This document shows, one piece after another, positions 1-6,296 of a stretch of DNA of 40,913 nt. Each line of letters opens with the position of its first letter. The stretch's first letter is position 1. The notes under the pieces are model-generated. The model saw only the letters and a list, made by a program, of their open reading frames with translations, was not told the origin of the DNA and ran no database searches. The stretch spans positions 1-40,913 of IMG/VR virus record IMGVR_UViG_3300020162_001664; one strand, written 5' to 3'. Position numbers and translations under genes: made by a program. The DNA comes from a virus.

Positions 1-128
1 AGCTGCTGTCTTAGGAGCTTCTGTCTTAGGAGCTGTTGTCTTAGGAGCTTCAGTTTTAGGAGCTGCTGTCTTAGGAGCTTCTGTCTTAGGAGCTGTTGTT
101 TTAGGAGCTGTTGTCTTAGGAGCTTCTT
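1..128 (-). repeat. 15-bp tandem repeat coding for APKT pentapeptides
   Basis: About eight units of 15 bp are seen on the minus strand, each coding [E/T/A]APKT, and they continue to the window edge. Units differ mainly at the first codon. The Pro/Lys/Ala/Thr content suggests an extended, disordered linker. The array probably changes length easily by slippage or recombination. Confidence 0.9.
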
Positions 129-519
129 TCTTAGGTGATTCAACCTTCTTGGTTGGTTTACTAGCTTTGGCTTTTTTCTCAGCTTCTTTTTCTCTACGAA
201 TAACTCGTTTAGGTTTTGGTTTTCTACGTAAAGTCAGAGCCTTAATAATTTCTTGGTGTTGTCTTTGTTCTTCAGAATCACTCTCTTCTTTTATATTTTG
301 TTCTCTCTCATATTCCAATCTTCTCTCTTCATCAGAATCAACCATCAATTGATATATTGATCCAAGATACTGTGTATTGGACATACTGCCAGAGGTTTCA
401 CTCATGGCAGGCTCAATTTTGTTTGATTTAAATACTGAACTTAATTTCGATAATCCACGGCCGAGACCACCAGTAATTTTACCAGCTGTCTCTTTTAAAC
501 TTTTTGTTATTTCGGCCAT
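1..519 (-). CDS. Partial large structural protein, candidate tail tape measure (N-terminal part)
   Basis: This gene starts at 519 on the minus strand and runs off the left edge, leaving about 173 residues. The start (MAEITKSLKETAGK) lies 3 bases after the stop of the small ORF upstream. Residues 1-35 are Lys/Gly/Ser-rich. Residues 70-125 are strongly charged and probably helical (DSDEERRLEYEREQ). From about residue 130 the chain becomes tandem pentapeptides of the form [E/T/A]APKT. I do not recognise a family from this fragment. Its place directly after the gp26/gp51-like chaperone genes is where contractile and long flexible-tailed phages carry the tape-measure gene, so that role is inferred from position only. 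A different hub or tail protein with a disordered linker is equally possible. Confidence 0.6.
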   Translation of the reverse strand, partial: MAEITKSLKETAGKITGGLGRGLSKLSSVFKSNKIEPAMSETSGSMSNTQYLGSIYQLMVDSDEERRLEYEREQNIKEESDSEEQRQHQEIIKALTLRRKPKPKRVIRREKEAEKKAKASKPTKKVESPKKEAPKTTAPKTTAPKTEAPKTAAPKTEAPKTTAPKTEAPKTAA

Positions 520-522
520 CTA

Positions 523-654
523 TTATTTTCTCATGCGTTCTTTTAATTTCTGATTCTCTTCTTCCAAATATTGAATTAGCATGGCGACATAGATATCTCG
601 TTCCCAAGGTATCATATTCTCAAGTTCAGTAAGACTATACTTATGGTGTTGCAT
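523..654 (-). CDS. Small gp51-position protein, also the predicted C-terminal extension of gp26
   Basis: A 43-residue reading frame starts at ATG 654-652 (MQHHKYSLTELENMIPWERD) and ends at 523, three bases before the next gene. It contains a PWERD/E motif followed by a charged helix (EEENQKLKERMRK). I recall similar short proteins after gene 26 in other T4-like phages, annotated as hypothetical or gp51-like. The open frame continues upstream without a stop into the end of gp26 (CYDDLKNYFKTNFSL precedes the Met), but has no ATG or GTG there. A TTG lies directly before the ATG. The coding-like extension suggests that it is translated mainly by -1 frameshift from gp26, adding 62 residues. Independent initiation at 654 cannot be excluded. 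Confidence 0.65.
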   Translation of the reverse strand: MQHHKYSLTELENMIPWERDIYVAMLIQYLEEENQKLKERMRK

Positions 655-704
655 CAAAGAAAAGTTAGTCTTAAAGTAATTTTTTAAATCATCATAACAA
701 AGTA

Positions 705-1433
705 TTAAACGAAAAAACTTTCGAGTCCCTCCACATCCAACTTATGTGGAAAACCACATTTTGAACATGTGATATCAACCGACTTTCTTAACTTTGGAAT
801 ACTATTGAAAAAGTTTTCCAATTTCTCAAATTGTTCTTGGCTTAATTGTTCGATAAATTCAACCAATTCTTGTGTTGTCTGTTCTTTTGCATAATGAAAC
901 TGTTCACCATCATATATGTGTTCTATAGACTGAGCCAACATGTTGAAGGTAACATCCGTGATGTTGTCAATATCAACCGAGTCTTTTATTAACTTGAATG
1001 GTGGATAACGCATCTTAATAACAATTTTGTCAGTCAATTGAATTTCAGGATCAATATGTTCCTGATATTCAGGCTTAATTTCCATCAAATTAATCTTTAC
1101 TTCCATAACATTGCCGCATGTCTTACCATCTTCGACTTCATTATTGCAACGATATTTTGTTTCTGAAATTTCACCAACAGACTTTGCTCTCAGATGAATA
1201 AAGTAATACTCAACATCAACTATCGAAAGTTCATCGATATCAAAATCTTTGGATAGTGTACACACATCCAAGATTTCTCGTACATTGTGTTGTATGCTGT
1301 GTGCATCACCAGATTCCATCGCCATCAAAAGAGCTTTCTGCTCCTTTACTAGAAACGGTCTGTATTTTATCTTCTTCTTAGAAAGCGGTAATTCCAGTTC
1401 ATAAGTTGGCACTTCAAGTTTTGGTAAAGCCAT
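705..1433 (-). CDS. 26: Baseplate hub / tail assembly protein gp26 family
   Basis: This 242-residue protein begins MALPKLEVPTYELELPLSKK and continues KIKYRPFLVKEQKALLMAME, the typical opening of the T4 gp26 (T4 baseplate protein) family in marine T4-like phages. There is a CNN...CGN pair near residues 97-108 and a CSKCGFPH motif at the C-terminus, so a small metal-binding ribbon is plausible. T4 gp26 is listed as a hub component or assembly factor; T4's protein is about 208 residues. It follows the tube-family gene after 9 bases and precedes a small ORF and a large gene. A slippery heptamer two codons before the stop suggests a longer frameshifted form of about 303 residues, as in lambda G/GT chaperones. 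The family call is firm; the chaperone role is inference. Confidence 0.85.
   Translation of the reverse strand: MALPKLEVPTYELELPLSKKKIKYRPFLVKEQKALLMAMESGDAHSIQHNVREILDVCTLSKDFDIDELSIVDVEYYFIHLRAKSVGEISETKYRCNNEVEDGKTCGNVMEVKINLMEIKPEYQEHIDPEIQLTDKIVIKMRYPPFKLIKDSVDIDNITDVTFNMLAQSIEHIYDGEQFHYAKEQTTQELVEFIEQLSQEQFEKLENFFNSIPKLRKSVDITCSKCGFPHKLDVEGLESFFV
711..717 (-). other. Predicted -1 ribosomal slippery site TTTTTTC at the end of gp26
   Basis: On the minus strand gp26 ends AGT TTT TTC GTT TAA. The heptamer T TTT TTC fits the X XXY YYZ rule in the zero frame. Slipping back one base after TTC gives CGT TTA ATA CTT and enters the 62-codon frame that ends at 523. The site lies two codons before the gp26 stop. 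I did not identify a convincing downstream stimulatory structure by eye. Confidence 0.55.
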
Positions 1434-1442
1434 AATATCTCC

Positions 1443-2117
1443 TTAATTATTTTCAATTTTAACGGTCGACTCCAGTGATTGTGCAATTGAGTTGAAACCT
1501 ATTCCGATGCCGCCAGATGCGCCGCCACCAAGTCCACCTACACTTGTGGCCACCGAGTTCAAACCAGCATCGATCAGTTCCATACCTAATGCTTGCAACG
1601 AATTGTTTTTCCAATAAGTATACGCAAAAGTTACCGACAGTTTATGGTAACCATCTGCGTTCCAATCTAAGTCCAGTTGGTTCATGGAAATAGGGAATGC
1701 ATCATATAAATTCACAGAATACGACAGTTTGTTTCCAACATCATATTGGTTGACTGTGATCGTTGTTGCATAATTTTCTTTATATCTCATATTGTAATTA
1801 AACATTGGATTAATATAGTTTAACCATGCATCAAAAAACACTTTTGATTCCATGTTGTCATCAATTATAAAAGTCAAATCTATGTCAGCATATGTAGTGA
1901 GATATGGATGTTTCTCAACTGGTCCATAAGTTTTTTGTTCAGTTGTTGCAAATGTTCTACCTGGAAGTTGTGCGTTTTCACATCTGTATGTAAGAGCTCT
2001 TGCTGTTGAGATGTACGGAATCAATGTCACTGGTATAGGAATGTTTACATCAAATCTATTTGGTCTGGCCAAATCACCTGAAAAACTTGATTTAAAATCA
2101 CTGATTGATCTAGGCAT
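1443..2117 (-). CDS. Tail tube-fold protein, gp19/gp54 family
   Basis: This 224-residue protein opens MPRSISDFKSSFSGDLARPN followed by RFDVNIPIP. That, and the segment around ENAQLPGRTFATTEQKTYGP with YADIDLTFIIDD, is characteristic of the T4 gp19-like tube family (phage_T4_gp19). Members polymerise into the inner tail tube or, as gp54, initiate it on the baseplate. At 224 residues it is longer than T4 gp19 (163) and shorter than gp54 (320). The last ~35 residues are Gly/Ser-rich (GGLGGGASGGIGIG). Its partner gp48, the tube cap, is encoded divergently 1.2 kb away, so the initiator role of gp54 is favoured over the bulk tube subunit. The start directly abuts the preceding stop at 2118. Confidence 0.75.
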   Translation of the reverse strand: MPRSISDFKSSFSGDLARPNRFDVNIPIPVTLIPYISTARALTYRCENAQLPGRTFATTEQKTYGPVEKHPYLTTYADIDLTFIIDDNMESKVFFDAWLNYINPMFNYNMRYKENYATTITVNQYDVGNKLSYSVNLYDAFPISMNQLDLDWNADGYHKLSVTFAYTYWKNNSLQALGMELIDAGLNSVATSVGGLGGGASGGIGIGFNSIAQSLESTVKIENN

Positions 2118-2735
2118 TTAATTGTTCCTTATTTCTTCTAGTGAATCTTTCCAGACTTCTTTTGGTTGTGCTTTTTTGAACTGGTGTACTGGCAAATATG
2201 TTGCAACATCCCATTCTTCTGGTTCAACAGCAAGAATCCTGGATTTTATGTGACTGTACAGGTACTTCTTCAGGCAAGGTCTAAACTCTTTTAGTCTAGA
2301 TGACGCATCCAACATAGGATAAGTCACCCTGACTCGTTTAATTTCATCCTCGTCATTATATAAAGCAAAACTCAACAACTTCTTTAGGAAGATTACACGG
2401 TATCTAAGTGGTAAGTAATGTATGTTTAAACCAATGAATCCATCAGATTGCCGTTTTAGTGGTATCACCAAAGGGAATCTATCATAGTAAGGCAAGTCAT
2501 CTTTGGTTTTAGGATCATACACAAAGTAATACATACCACCCATCAAGAATTTTTGTCTATCGGCCGGTCTTGTCCATCTTTCCTTTTCTTTTGTGATAGG
2601 AACAGACAATCGACCTGGATTTCTCAGGCCTGCAATTTTTTGCATCAACCATTTCAAAGACTGGCTGCTCATCGTTGGATGTTCAGCTGCGATCTTCTGT
2701 TCGGTCAGTGTGGTTAGTATGGATTTTGTTATCAT
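2118..2735 (-). CDS. Conserved T4-like phage protein of unknown role, between gp4 and the tube gene
   Basis: This 205-residue basic protein carries a conserved-looking core: MGGMYYFVYDPKTKDDLPYY, then FPLVIPLKR, DGFIGLNIHYLPLRYRVIF, and a Lys/Arg-rich C-terminal half. I have a memory of this core in many T4-like phages of aquatic bacteria, usually as a hypothetical protein, but cannot assign a function. In T4, gene 4 is flanked by gene 2 (DNA end protector), with gene 3 (tail completion) just beyond, so a virion-completion or DNA-end role is conceivable. I see no motif that proves it. There is no signal peptide and no membrane segment. The gene starts 11 bases after gp4 and its stop abuts the next start, so it is clearly translated in the same operon. 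Confidence 0.75.
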   Translation of the reverse strand: MITKSILTTLTEQKIAAEHPTMSSQSLKWLMQKIAGLRNPGRLSVPITKEKERWTRPADRQKFLMGGMYYFVYDPKTKDDLPYYDRFPLVIPLKRQSDGFIGLNIHYLPLRYRVIFLKKLLSFALYNDEDEIKRVRVTYPMLDASSRLKEFRPCLKKYLYSHIKSRILAVEPEEWDVATYLPVHQFKKAQPKEVWKDSLEEIRNN

Positions 2736-2746
2736 TGGATATTTAG

Positions 2747-3181
2747 TTACAGTCCAAGGTCATCTTCTGTAATAATCTGGAAGGCCCAGCCCCTATCTTG
2801 ACAATATTCATTAGCTGCTTTCCATTTAGCACTGTTAACACCCCATGTAGTGACTTCATTTATGTACTGTTTAGTGACACGCTTTTGTTTTTTAGGTTCC
2901 TGTGTCTGTTTTTTAGGTTTAACCTCAATCATCAATGTCTTTAGTTTACCCTCTTTGGTGCGTACTTTGACTAAGAAATCTGGATAATAACGATGAAACT
3001 TATTATCCACTGGAGATTTGTAAGGAACTATCAACTCTTCTGATGCCCACGATATGATATTTGGATTTTTATCGAGCCAGTGCATCACTCTACACTCCCA
3101 ACTCGAGCGATATATGATATTTTTGTGGTCACCCATGTATTTTTGTGGGTTTGTTGGTTTAAATGTGCCGGAATATGCCAT
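2747..3181 (-). CDS. 4: Head completion protein gp4 (gp50-type nuclease fold)
   Basis: This 144-residue protein matches the T4 gp4 family: MAYSGTFKPTNPQKYMGDHK, then IIYRSSWE, SEELIVPYKSPVDNK, YYPDFLVKV, MIEVKPKKQT and a C-terminal WKAANEYCQDRGWAF. The YPDF...IEVKPKK pattern (D about 78, E and K about 98-100) resembles the PD-(D/E)xK nuclease core seen in this family. In T4 gp4 acts after DNA packaging to finish heads so that tails can join. It is the first gene of the leftward operon, transcribed away from gp48 across a 131-base divergent gap. T4 gp4 is about 150 residues, so it is full length. A start further upstream (3294) would be in another frame and is not supported. Confidence 0.93.
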   Translation of the reverse strand: MAYSGTFKPTNPQKYMGDHKNIIYRSSWECRVMHWLDKNPNIISWASEELIVPYKSPVDNKFHRYYPDFLVKVRTKEGKLKTLMIEVKPKKQTQEPKKQKRVTKQYINEVTTWGVNSAKWKAANEYCQDRGWAFQIITEDDLGL

Positions 3182-3272
3182 AGTTCATAAATAATTGTGT
3201 ATATACCAATCCGACGCCGGTGTGGAACGTCAGTTATGAATATATATGCGATTTCTTTTTGTGGATATGATA

Positions 3273-3280
3273 CATAAATA
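3273..3280 (+). promoter_or_regulatory. Late-promoter-like CATAAATA before gp48
   Basis: CATAAATA matches the T4-type late -10 element TATAAATA at seven of eight positions. It lies 33 bases before the gp48 ATG, leaving room for a short leader. A second plus-oriented CATAAATA is at 3186-3193. The site heads the rightward baseplate operon in the divergent gap. For the leftward operon the minus strand has TATAAAAT (3282-3289), a weaker candidate. Confidence 0.5.
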
Positions 3281-3312
3281 GATTTTATACACACTCTTTT
3301 CTAAGAAAAACA

Positions 3313-4311
3313 ATGGCACTCATCACAATACCAACATCTATAGGTGGTTTAAACATTCCCGCAGGAATATTTGGCGGACCTTTGGGGTCACTATATCGAA
3401 AAGGTGGACTGGAATATGTACAATATCCGAGAGATTTGGGTAGTGCAACAAAGTCACACTCGATTTTGTTTACGATAGAAGAGATACAAGAAACAAAATT
3501 TCAGGACGTTTTAAATAAGATTGAATCTTTGTTCAAATCCAAGTCTGATCCAATTCCTGAAGGTGCAGCCACAGTTGATGAACAAAATGCAATAAATGAG
3601 GCCTTGGCTGACCAACGAGCTGGCACCACAGATAGAAGCTTTGTACAGAGTGCTGGTGATATGCTGAACTCCGGTTTAAATTCTCTTGGTGAATCCGTAA
3701 AAGAATTTAATAGTAGAAAAGGTGTACCAGTAGGTTATATTGCGCTCTATATGCCGGAAAATTTTAACATCACATCAAATATGTCATATGATGACACTAC
3801 AACAATAGCCTCGGCAGCTGGTGCATTACCATTAATTGGTAGTGTAGTTAGTAAAGTAACTGACAAACTTCAGAATAATGACGCTGCTAAACTTGCTTTA
3901 AACAGAGCCGGTTATGTTTTTAATCCACAAAAACAAATGTTGTTTCAGGGTATTGAGTTTAGAGAATTCAATCTATCTTTCACTTTCACACCATATTCAC
4001 AAAGGGAAGCGGAAGATGTTAAGAAAATTATCAAAATGTTTAGGATGTGGTCGGCACCAAAAACATCTTCGGCTGGAGCTGGTATGTTCTTTGTTCCGCC
4101 TGCGTTATTTGGTGTGGAATTTCAGTTTCAAGGTAAACTAAATCCAAATTTACCAAAGTTAGAAAGATGTGTTGTAGAATCGGTTGATGTTAATTATGCA
4201 CCAAACGGATGGGCTGCACACAGTGATGGTGCACCGATACAAACGACTATGGCAATTCAATTGAAGGAAATCGTACTGATTGACCGTGCAAAAGTGAATG
4301 CTGGATACTAA
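3313..4311 (+). CDS. 48: Baseplate tail tube cap gp48
   Basis: This 332-residue protein belongs to the T4 gp48 tail-cap family, the ring that joins the hub to the first tube layer. Recognisable parts are the N-terminus (IPAGIFGGPLGSLYRKGGLE, YPRDLG), the central GVPVGYIALYMPENF at about 138-152, and the C-terminal half FREFNLSFTFTPYSQREAED followed by MFRMWSAP, FFVPPALFGVEFQ and VDVNYAPNGWAAHSDGAP. The C-terminal half is the tube-like beta fold. T4 gp48 is 364 residues, so it is full length. It is the first rightward gene, opposite gp4, and its end overlaps or nearly touches gp53. The leader has no strong Shine-Dalgarno sequence (only CTAAGAAAA). Confidence 0.92.
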   Translation: MALITIPTSIGGLNIPAGIFGGPLGSLYRKGGLEYVQYPRDLGSATKSHSILFTIEEIQETKFQDVLNKIESLFKSKSDPIPEGAATVDEQNAINEALADQRAGTTDRSFVQSAGDMLNSGLNSLGESVKEFNSRKGVPVGYIALYMPENFNITSNMSYDDTTTIASAAGALPLIGSVVSKVTDKLQNNDAAKLALNRAGYVFNPQKQMLFQGIEFREFNLSFTFTPYSQREAEDVKKIIKMFRMWSAPKTSSAGAGMFFVPPALFGVEFQFQGKLNPNLPKLERCVVESVDVNYAPNGWAAHSDGAPIQTTMAIQLKEIVLIDRAKVNAGY

Positions 4312-4312
4312 A

Positions 4313-4933
4313 ATGCAATACTTTAATTCTTTACCTAAAGTTCAATATACCAATAAAAATGGTGTATCTACAGTGTACACCAACTTATTGGCTAGAGCAA
4401 GCATAATTCCAAGTCTGTTGAACAATACATTAAATTTTTATGATTATGACATACAAGACGGTGACACACCGGAAATTGTAGCATACAAATATTATGGTGA
4501 TTCTTATAGATATTGGGTGGTACTATATGTGAATCAAATAAATGATGCACAATGGGATTGGCCATTAAATGATAGAAATTTTCGTGAGTATATGAATGAA
4601 AAATATGCCGGTAATACCGCGGAGAATGTTCACCATTATGAAAAGACTATTACACAAACAAATAGAACATCTGGTACAGACTACGATATAAAAACCACAA
4701 CAAATAGCTTTTCGATTACAGAAGAAGAATACACCGAACTGCAAAATGCAGGTGGAATAGAAACAAATACATATGTTCTGCCAACCGGTTCAGTTGATGT
4801 TACAATAGAATCAAGAATAGTTACAAATTATACATATGAGCTTGAACTGAATGAAGCTAAAAGAAGTATAAAATTGTTAAACAAAGCATTTATTGACCAA
4901 TTTGAAAAAGATTTTATGGATTTAATGAAATAA
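4313..4933 (+). CDS. 53: Baseplate wedge protein gp53
   Basis: The gp53 wedge subunit sits at the joint between hub and wedges. Signature: FYDYDIQDGDTPEIVAYKYY, YWVVLYVNQINDAQWDWPLN, the LysM-like domain of gp53 (about residues 35-85), then FREYMNEKYAG and a helical C-terminus (LNEAKRSIKLLNKAFIDQFE). I prefer ATG 4313, giving MQYFNSLPKVQY (206 residues), because related phage gp53 proteins begin MxYFxxFPK. An in-frame ATG at 4298 would add MLDTK and overlap gp48 by 14 bases. Length fits T4 gp53 (196). Confidence 0.9.
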   Translation: MQYFNSLPKVQYTNKNGVSTVYTNLLARASIIPSLLNNTLNFYDYDIQDGDTPEIVAYKYYGDSYRYWVVLYVNQINDAQWDWPLNDRNFREYMNEKYAGNTAENVHHYEKTITQTNRTSGTDYDIKTTTNSFSITEEEYTELQNAGGIETNTYVLPTGSVDVTIESRIVTNYTYELELNEAKRSIKLLNKAFIDQFEKDFMDLMK

Positions 4934-4934
4934 T

Positions 4935-6296
4935 ATGGAAGATACAGATGCACCAAATGGTGGTTTTTATTATCCACAAGATTTTAGTTTAGAAGCTGTA
5001 GACATAACTACAGATTCCGGAAATGTATATAAATTAAAATATCTTGTTGTTGAATTGTCTTTCTTTGAAGACATATACGCTTTTGCGTGTTCGGGCAATG
5101 TGGTGTTGCGTGATGCTGTTGGTTTAATTGAAAAACTTAAATTGGATGGTTCCGAAATAATTGAAATTACTTATGGTAAATCAAGCTCACAAAAAAAATC
5201 TGAAAAGAATTCTAGAAAATATAGACTGTATAAGATTGGTAACAGAAAGCCGTTAGGCAATAAAACAACAGAATTTTTCACAATGTATTTCTGTTCAGAA
5301 GAATTGTTTTTATCTGAACAAATAAAAATATCCAAATCTTTTAAGGGCCAAACGATATCTAAAATTGTTGATAGTATATTATTAGATACTAACAACGGTC
5401 TAAAAGTAAACAAATCAAAAATACAAAAAATTGAAAATACTTATGGTGTTTATGATTTCGTTATACCAAAATTAAAACCATTTGAAGCTATTAGTTGGTT
5501 ATCTACATATGCTAGGCCAGAACGCCGAAGCGGTGCAGATTCAGGTGCAGACATGTTGTTTTATGAAACTAATGATGGATTTTATTTCCAGTCATTACAA
5601 TCTATGTTTACTGCGGCACCATATGCAACTTACAAATACCAACCATCCGATTTAGATTTCAAAAATAGTTACGAGAATAATTTTAATATTATAGACTATG
5701 AATTTATCAAAACTTATGACACACTTGATGCAACAGCTTCTGGTATATACGCAAACAGATTGATAAGTATTGATCCTTTGTTGAGAAAAAAAACTATTAC
5801 CGATTTCAATAAAGACAAATTGACTGGTTACTCAAACTCTGGATCACCAAGTAATAGGTTTGGTAAAAAATTAACAGATATGTATGATAGTTCGTTAAAA
5901 CTTGCGTTTAGTAATTCCAATCAAATTAACAGGCCATATATAAAGCAAGGCGAAAGTCAAGTCGGAAAAGATATTTTTATAGAAACTTCTGTGCCAAATA
6001 GGTCAGCACAAATTGCTTTGTCTAACTACACAGTGATGAAAGCAATAATACCTGGTGATAGTACCATAACAGCAGGAAGAACTGTTAATATTTTACTTTA
6101 CTCATTACAATTTGGTGGCGATGCAGAGAATGCAACCCGAGCGCTCGATACATATTTTTCTGGCATATATTTGGTGACAGCTGTTCGACACATCATACAA
6201 ACACAAGGTGTATATCAAACAGTTTTGGAATTGGCAAAAGAAAGTTTGAAATCTAGTTATGATACACAGGGAAATTCAGGAAGATTAAATGAATAA
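4935..6296 (+). CDS. Baseplate hub protein, gp27-like
   Basis: This 453-residue protein begins MEDTDAPNGGFYYPQDFSLE, with beta-rich segments (YLVVELSFFEDIYAFACSGN, FFTMYFCSEE) and the motif FKGQTISKIVDSIL at about 133-146. Then come IPKLKPFEAISWLSTYARP at about 178-196 and a C-terminal beta domain (AIIPGDSTITAGRTVNI, YFSGIYLVTAVRHIIQ). This is the pattern of the gp27/VgrG-N type hub of T4-like phages: two tube-like barrels with an SxxI helix and a PF.AI.WLS segment. The hub trimer would hold the spike coded just downstream. Position between gp53 and the gp5 OB gene supports it. T4 gp27 is 391 residues. Assignment is by pattern and position, not by close identity. Confidence 0.75.
   Translation: MEDTDAPNGGFYYPQDFSLEAVDITTDSGNVYKLKYLVVELSFFEDIYAFACSGNVVLRDAVGLIEKLKLDGSEIIEITYGKSSSQKKSEKNSRKYRLYKIGNRKPLGNKTTEFFTMYFCSEELFLSEQIKISKSFKGQTISKIVDSILLDTNNGLKVNKSKIQKIENTYGVYDFVIPKLKPFEAISWLSTYARPERRSGADSGADMLFYETNDGFYFQSLQSMFTAAPYATYKYQPSDLDFKNSYENNFNIIDYEFIKTYDTLDATASGIYANRLISIDPLLRKKTITDFNKDKLTGYSNSGSPSNRFGKKLTDMYDSSLKLAFSNSNQINRPYIKQGESQVGKDIFIETSVPNRSAQIALSNYTVMKAIIPGDSTITAGRTVNILLYSLQFGGDAENATRALDTYFSGIYLVTAVRHIIQTQGVYQTVLELAKESLKSSYDTQGNSGRLNE

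Follow-up and report, generated by a model that had tools for sequence, protein, structure and literature searches.

A predicted −1 frameshift joining gp26 to a gp51-like domain at the probable tail assembly chaperone locus of an uncultured T4-like phage

Introduction

Phage lambda makes proteins G and GT as a short form and a longer, −1 frameshifted form, encoded past the tail tube gene, and these proteins coat the tape measure and recruit tube subunits. Vladimirov, Gautam and Davidson, in an abstract of 2022, reportedly name T4 genes 26 and 51 and describe frameshifting in several T4-like groups. Passages in two papers rely on that study (Vladimirov, Gautam and Davidson 2022, Virology 566:9-15). 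One cites it for T4-like phages in which a short gene is accompanied by a fused longer gene and frameshifting is not used (PMC10885494), the other for poly-T slippery sequences in the TAC-N genes of T4-like phages, TAC being the tail assembly chaperone (PMC12846349).

Here we analyze a stretch of 40,913 nucleotides (the window) of the IMG/VR virus record IMGVR_UViG_3300020162_001664, for which a programmed −1 frameshift from gp26 into a small ORF had been predicted. It had been added that no established description of this existed for T4-like phages. That statement was mistaken, since PMC10885494 and PMC12846349 both cite Vladimirov et al. 2022 for it; on the strength of these citing passages the basic finding is already known, and the window is therefore a further member of a described class. 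As far as the same passages describe them, the phages of Vladimirov et al. share with the window the poly-T slippery sequence in TAC-N, some having the two-gene form, whereas the lineage of the window is uncultured and known here from IMG/VR contigs alone.

More distant systems offer further comparisons. Like lambda gpG/gpGT, the window encodes a short form and a predicted −1 long form past a tail tube gene, and the N-terminal part of its TAC-N weakly resembles the fold of the HK97 tail assembly chaperone (2ob9). Unlike lambda and HK97, the N-terminal protein of the window is larger, and its sequence found no meaningful match among solved structures. The TAC locus of the Vandenendeviridae (GTTTTT motif), in the passage devoted to it in PMC12846349, likewise has a T-rich −1 site near the end of TAC-N and an uninterrupted −1 frame, but these are different phage families from that of the window and the likeness seen here is one of layout.

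Results

Layout of the locus

The locus comprises the following features, by position in the window.

1 to 519, minus strand: 5' part of an APKT-repeat gene, cut by the window end; weak, low-complexity match to a tape measure PHROG (7e-5)
523 to 717, minus strand: gp51-like reading frame of TAC-C (−1), running from the heptamer through its own stop codon, recognized by phrog_634 and pN/pS
652 to 657, minus strand: TTG ATG, codons 21-22 of the −1 frame, the first possible ATG, GTG or TTG start in the window, read from the sequence
705 to 707, minus strand: zero-frame stop TAA of gp26, one codon (GTT, 710-708) past the heptamer
705 to 1433, minus strand: TAC-N, the gp26 homologue and short form, 242 aa, matching PF12322 (T4_baseplate) and phrog_150
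711 to 717, minus strand: slippery heptamer T TTT TTC, zero frame, X XXY YYZ type, read from the sequence
727 to 732, minus strand: Shine-Dalgarno (SD)-like GGAGGG, a possible stimulator, ending 9 nt before the heptamer
1443 to 2117, minus strand: gene of the tail tube family (gp19/gp54-like), immediately preceding TAC-N; phrog_45 5e-46, PF23849 1.2e-07

The gp26 homologue matches PF12322 at 1e-56 (192.5 bits against a curated cut-off of 24.5) and phrog_150, a baseplate hub family, at 4e-62. Its 3' end on the minus strand reads GGA CTC GAA AGT TTT TTC GTT TAA, and our re-reading agreed with the original prediction on this gene end and on the zero-frame heptamer at 717-711. The placement of the heptamer in zero frame near the stop also stood, whereas its distance from the stop, given as two codons, was off by about one. 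From the heptamer the −1 frame continues uninterrupted to a stop at 525-523 and adds 62 codons; the predicted products have 242 and 303 aa, the latter being 241 + 62. The −1 ORF matches phrog_634 (gp51, baseplate hub assembly catalyst) at 4.2e-29 over profile positions 56-116 of 121, as well as the phrog_150 profile at its C-terminal end (9e-7). Since no ATG occurs in the −1 frame until codon 22 (654-652), which has a TTG just before it, coding-like sequence precedes any ATG, as had been proposed. At the level of sequence layout, then, a short protein and a C-terminally extended form are predicted from the window.

Conservation of the heptamer and the −1 domain

Relatives of gp26 in IMG/VR were collected by scans from the window (best 80 of 591 loci), from gp26 of S-PM2, pf16, phiM9 and Ochrobactrum OC (80, 80, 60 and 7 loci), and from gp26 of Klebsiella phage phi1_146029 (18 loci, labelled Ackermannviridae). 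Three of the scans were limited to the best 80 of 591, of 276 and of 147 relatives, and the survey consequently covers nearest relatives. Five of the 325 loci had no intact 3' end (three in the pf16 set, two in the phiM9 set), leaving 302 of 307 non-Ackermannviridae loci intact. Seventeen cultured phages were picked from match lists; T4, Aes012 and Acj133 were left out of this set because genes 26 and 51 are separate there. The heptamer was sought in zero frame within 25 codons of the stop.

All 302 intact non-Ackermannviridae loci, which are nearest relatives, carry a zero-frame T TTT TT(C/T/G) heptamer. A gp51-like C domain was matched in 300 of these 302, always in the −1 frame and never in another, with the qualification that the window, 16 phages and 7 of the loci supplied the sequences for the survey profiles and so match by construction. 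The 302 loci represent 213 distinct contexts of 210 nt; identical contexts were merged for the distinct counts under slightly differing rules, which left 216 to 226. Among the loci nearest to the window (best 80 of 591), T TTT TTC together with a window-like −1 frame was found in 80 of 80, in nine of which the contig ends ahead of the −1 stop. The cultured phages had the heptamer in 16 of 17 cases and the −1 C domain in 17 of 17, the exception without a heptamer being phi1_146029.

Phe-Phe pairs elsewhere in these genes make up a heptamer of this kind in only 5 of 325 cases (loci not deduplicated). At the slip site the P-site codon is TTT and the preceding codon ends in T in all 226 distinct sequences, against shares of 0.63 and 0.70, respectively, expected from the genes' own codon usage, although these 226 sequences are related and far from independent. 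Because it recurs in all 302 loci, with the −1 domain in 300, the heptamer is not a chance occurrence. Conservation across T4-like relatives was the check that the original prediction had proposed, and absence of the heptamer from close relatives the outcome that it had named as contrary; the heptamer was kept in both the wider non-Ackermannviridae set and the nearest set.

Selection and start codons in the −1 frame

In 44 distinct close sequences (the group of the window), the 16 −1-frame codons that lie past the zero-frame stop and before codon 22 (5-20 when counted from zero) gave pS 0.67 and pN 0.085, a ratio of 0.13, compared with 1.40 and 0.98 in the other two frames; the ratios are approximate because pS is near saturation. 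Over the same stretch, stops occur in 0 of 44 sequences in the −1 frame and in 43 and 44 of 44 in the other frames. Past the usual first ATG the −1 ratio is 0.10 versus 1.19 and 4.90. In the close group, purifying selection thus acts on the −1 codons that precede the usual first ATG, and the second proposed check, conservation of the codons before the ATG, gave a positive answer.

These data bear on the alternative of an independent gp51 gene, in which translation of the small ORF would begin internally (at TTG codon 21 or ATG codon 22) or through re-initiation past the gp26 stop. We regard this as improbable. The first −1 ATG in the close group is codon 22 in 35 sequences, codon 21 in 5 and codon 35 in 4, so that 39 of 44 have no ATG in codons 1-21, and 4 of 44 none up to codon 34, yet the protein sequence of this stretch is conserved, as is the heptamer; in the window itself, codons 1-20 include neither ATG nor GTG nor TTG. 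Nevertheless, when ATG, GTG and TTG are all counted, only 1 of the 44 is free of start-like codons in codons 1-21. Moreover, two groups of relatives have an earlier first ATG, at codon 6 in 30 of 57 distinct sequences of one group and at codon 4 in 22 of 47 of the other. Since an ATG at −1 codons 4-6 is seen in many relatives, cyanophages among them, the C domain might be started separately in these phages.

Annotation also leans towards a separate gene: of eight phage records checked, five (P-TIM68, S-PM2, P-HM1, phiN3 and P-SSM2) list gp51 as an independent gene with a start shortly past the gp26 stop, and three omit it. The ACG-2014d, ACG-2014e and VH7D records (L082, L083 and L088) show no TAC-C ORF, and gene 51 is unannotated in the record of T4 strain 'wild' (L081, 2192-2941). 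Against a separate gp51 stands the domain structure of T4 gp51 itself, which carries an attached gp26-like domain.

The two-gene form of T4

T4 gp51 (249 aa) matches PF12322 over residues 1-201 at 7.7e-55, and the gp51 proteins of Aes012 and Acj133 do so at 2e-45 and 1.1e-47. A profile of the −1 C domain matches the ends of gp51, from residue ~200, at 5.9e-7, 1.9e-11 and 2.6e-8 in T4, Aes012 and Acj133, the best of 300 shuffled controls being 0.099. The TAC-N profile matched the three proteins weakly (9.8e-5, 3.3e-5 and 0.0018; best shuffled 0.17 among the matches listed), far more weakly than Pfam's model, which may itself hold gp51 sequences. With its gp26-like PF12322 domain and its C-domain match, gp51 is laid out like the predicted frameshift product. 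By these profile matches, T4 gp51 is a gp26-like domain plus a gp51-like C domain, paralogous to the predicted fusion, and T4 gp26 corresponds to the short form of the window.

T4, Aes012 and Acj133 differ from the window in having two separate, divergent genes and no T-rich heptamer, which is absent from the last 25 codons of their gp26. As for other zero-frame XXXYYYZ motifs in the gp26 end, T4 and Aes012 have none and Acj133 has one, A AAG GGA, 9 codons before the stop. Whole-record searches returned two PF12322 genes in each of these three phages and one in 12 other phages, 11 of which have the heptamer, phi1_146029 being the one that does not. Four near-relative records of 66 to 180 kb also have one PF12322 gene each.

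Predicted structures

The AlphaFold2 model of TAC-N has a mean pLDDT of 87.4 and a pTM of 0.80, and that of TAC-C consists of three helices (pLDDT 83.8). Foldseek against the PDB placed the HK97 chaperone 2ob9 first for TAC-N, at a non-significant E of 0.84 and a probability of 0.60. With VIA-align, run on Foldseek's 269 best chains, residues 1-95 of TAC-N gave Z scores of 7.7 for 3fgx, 7.5 for 3klu and 7.1 for 2ob9, followed by 4.6 and 2.2, where the tool warns that Z below 8 can reflect a common arrangement. We take 3fgx and 3klu to be tail assembly chaperone homologues. Among viral models the best named matches of TAC-N were baseplate hub proteins, and a sequence-profile search of solved structures gave three weak matches (E 0.35-0.55), none of them a phage chaperone. 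The gp26 model may thus be said to resemble the HK97 tail assembly chaperone weakly.

Possible stimulators and the Ackermannviridae-labelled lineage

A SD-like stimulator acts in dnaX at a spacing similar to that of GGAGGG. Within the 50 nt examined, predicted pairing with the 16S anti-SD is strongest at the GGAGGG position in the mean profiles of six of six groups. Compared with synonymous controls, the pairing energies were −7.8 vs −5.3 kcal/mol in the close group (n=45), −6.7 vs −5.3 in the S-PM2 group (n=57), −7.3 vs −5.8 in the phiM9 group (n=45), −7.1 vs −5.6 in cultured phages (n=16) and −5.2 vs −4.5 in the Ochrobactrum OC group (n=6), with no real excess in the pf16 group (n=47; −4.9 vs −4.7); these values come from related sequences and are suggestive only. 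GGAGGG may have a stimulating role. No strong RNA structure was predicted downstream (z −0.48; consensus energy −2.5 kcal/mol over 16 sequences), and Rfam gave no match at E<=1 for window 1-3300. A consensus helix between GGAGGG and the T run consisted mostly of G-U pairs with almost no covariation, and was given no weight. A title-level search returned no published title on a SD-like stimulator in a TAC-N gene, which does not show that it is undescribed.

We take L321-L338, as well as L095, the record of which names no family, to be Ackermannviridae. In the 18 Ackermannviridae-labelled loci L321-L338 the C domain lies in the −1 frame in 18 of 18 and the heptamer is found in 0 of 18; the junction reads GAR ATT TTC ATY TAA in all 18, with no XXXYYYZ, and an ATG overlaps the gp26 stop in 3. 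L095 likewise has its C domain in the −1 frame and no XXXYYYZ heptamer. For such a junction, too, a title-level search returned no title on the subject, which leaves room for an earlier description. It could tentatively be hypothesized that slippage in T4-like chaperone genes is driven mainly by internal SD-like pairing ~9 nt upstream and not by downstream RNA structure, and that the Ackermannviridae-labelled lineage keeps the −1 layout without a canonical heptamer, which would imply non-standard recoding or restart; we consider this combined proposal rather doubtful.

The downstream APKT gene

TAC-N is flanked by the tail tube family gene directly upstream and, downstream, by a gene with weak, low-complexity matches to tape measure PHROGs. 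In some cultured phages, genes downstream of TAC-C match tape measure PHROGs at 2.7e-7 to 0.0085, again in low-complexity sequence. The original prediction took the APKT gene to be the tape measure. Its position and the weak PHROG match agree with this, but the evidence from a relative, L001, in which the gene is complete (3915-5651; 578 aa), does not: this gene matched no tape measure PHROG at E<=0.01 and matched the endolysin family phrog_181 at 1.3e-26, and the 578-aa family showed no clear tie to T4 gp29 (E 0.055). Taken together, the data only weakly suggest that the APKT gene might encode the tape measure.

The 578-aa gene of L001 is followed by a 478-aa gene, and in L352 the order is gp4, gp2, tail tube, TAC-N, (TAC-C), 578-aa gene and 478-aa gene, with names given by likeness to the window's genes. 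The 478-aa family was tried as gp29 (probability 22, E 9e-4, reversed controls 0.1-0.6), but the alignment is gapped and of low complexity and we do not trust it; a tblastn search of phages with the 478-aa protein found nothing. The 578-aa protein of L001 also shows, below the cut-off, a weak likeness to GH19 chitinases in one patch (PF00182, 1e-4). By eye, the Lys/Pro-rich APKT part differs strongly between window 1-420 and L001 3915-4700, where gp26 is 99% identical. In S-PM2 the large gene past gp51 (L085, 3386-5713) has an ADP-ribosyltransferase-like N-terminal stretch (PF01129, 5e-6).

Discussion

The locus is very probably the tail assembly chaperone of a T4-like myovirus, with TAC-N as the short form and TAC-NC as the product of a predicted −1 frameshift. 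The following observations make gp26/gp51 most likely a TAC-N/TAC-NC pair: the conservation of the heptamer and the −1 frame, purifying selection, the layout of T4 gp51 and the weak HK97 resemblance. The analogy to lambda G/GT drawn in the original prediction is, by conservation and the gp51 layout, well supported.

Most ribosomes would end at the gp26 stop and yield TAC-N of 242 aa. A minority would slip back by one base on T TTT TTC, at the tandem Phe codons, and thereby bypass the stop one codon later. The slipped ribosomes would yield TAC-NC, 303 aa in length, whose gp51-like C domain is predicted to be helical. If the analogy with lambda G/GT holds, TAC-N and TAC-NC would then wrap the tape measure protein and bring in subunits of the tail tube. 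We infer frameshifting in vivo and its efficiency, stimulation by GGAGGG, the chaperone function and the tape measure partner alike.

The long form could in principle arise by transcriptional slippage on the T run instead of ribosomal frameshifting, and the T runs of some relatives, extended to 7 in 42 and to 8 in 39 of the 302 loci, would fit this. Yet the window and all 80 nearest loci (best 80 of 591) have only six T, and the zero-frame X XXY YYZ phase is kept in 302 of 302 loci. We consider this mechanism even less probable than a separate gp51 gene. An assembly artefact or gene decay is next to inconceivable as the origin of the −1 extension, given the same frame relation in 300 of 302 IMG/VR loci (213 distinct contexts) and in isolated phages, and the purifying selection on the −1 frame in the close group.

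In conclusion, the window is a well supported but expected case of the frameshift that, according to the papers citing Vladimirov et al. 2022, has already been described for T4 relatives. Separate tests support gp26 and gp51, named 'baseplate hub protein' and 'assembly catalyst' in databases, as a tail assembly chaperone pair. One lineage apart, the environmental relatives that were retrieved show the frameshift layout, whereas T4, Aes012 and Acj133 have a pair of genes in its place. The phage records that give gp51 its own start or omit it (five and three of eight) could be corrected.
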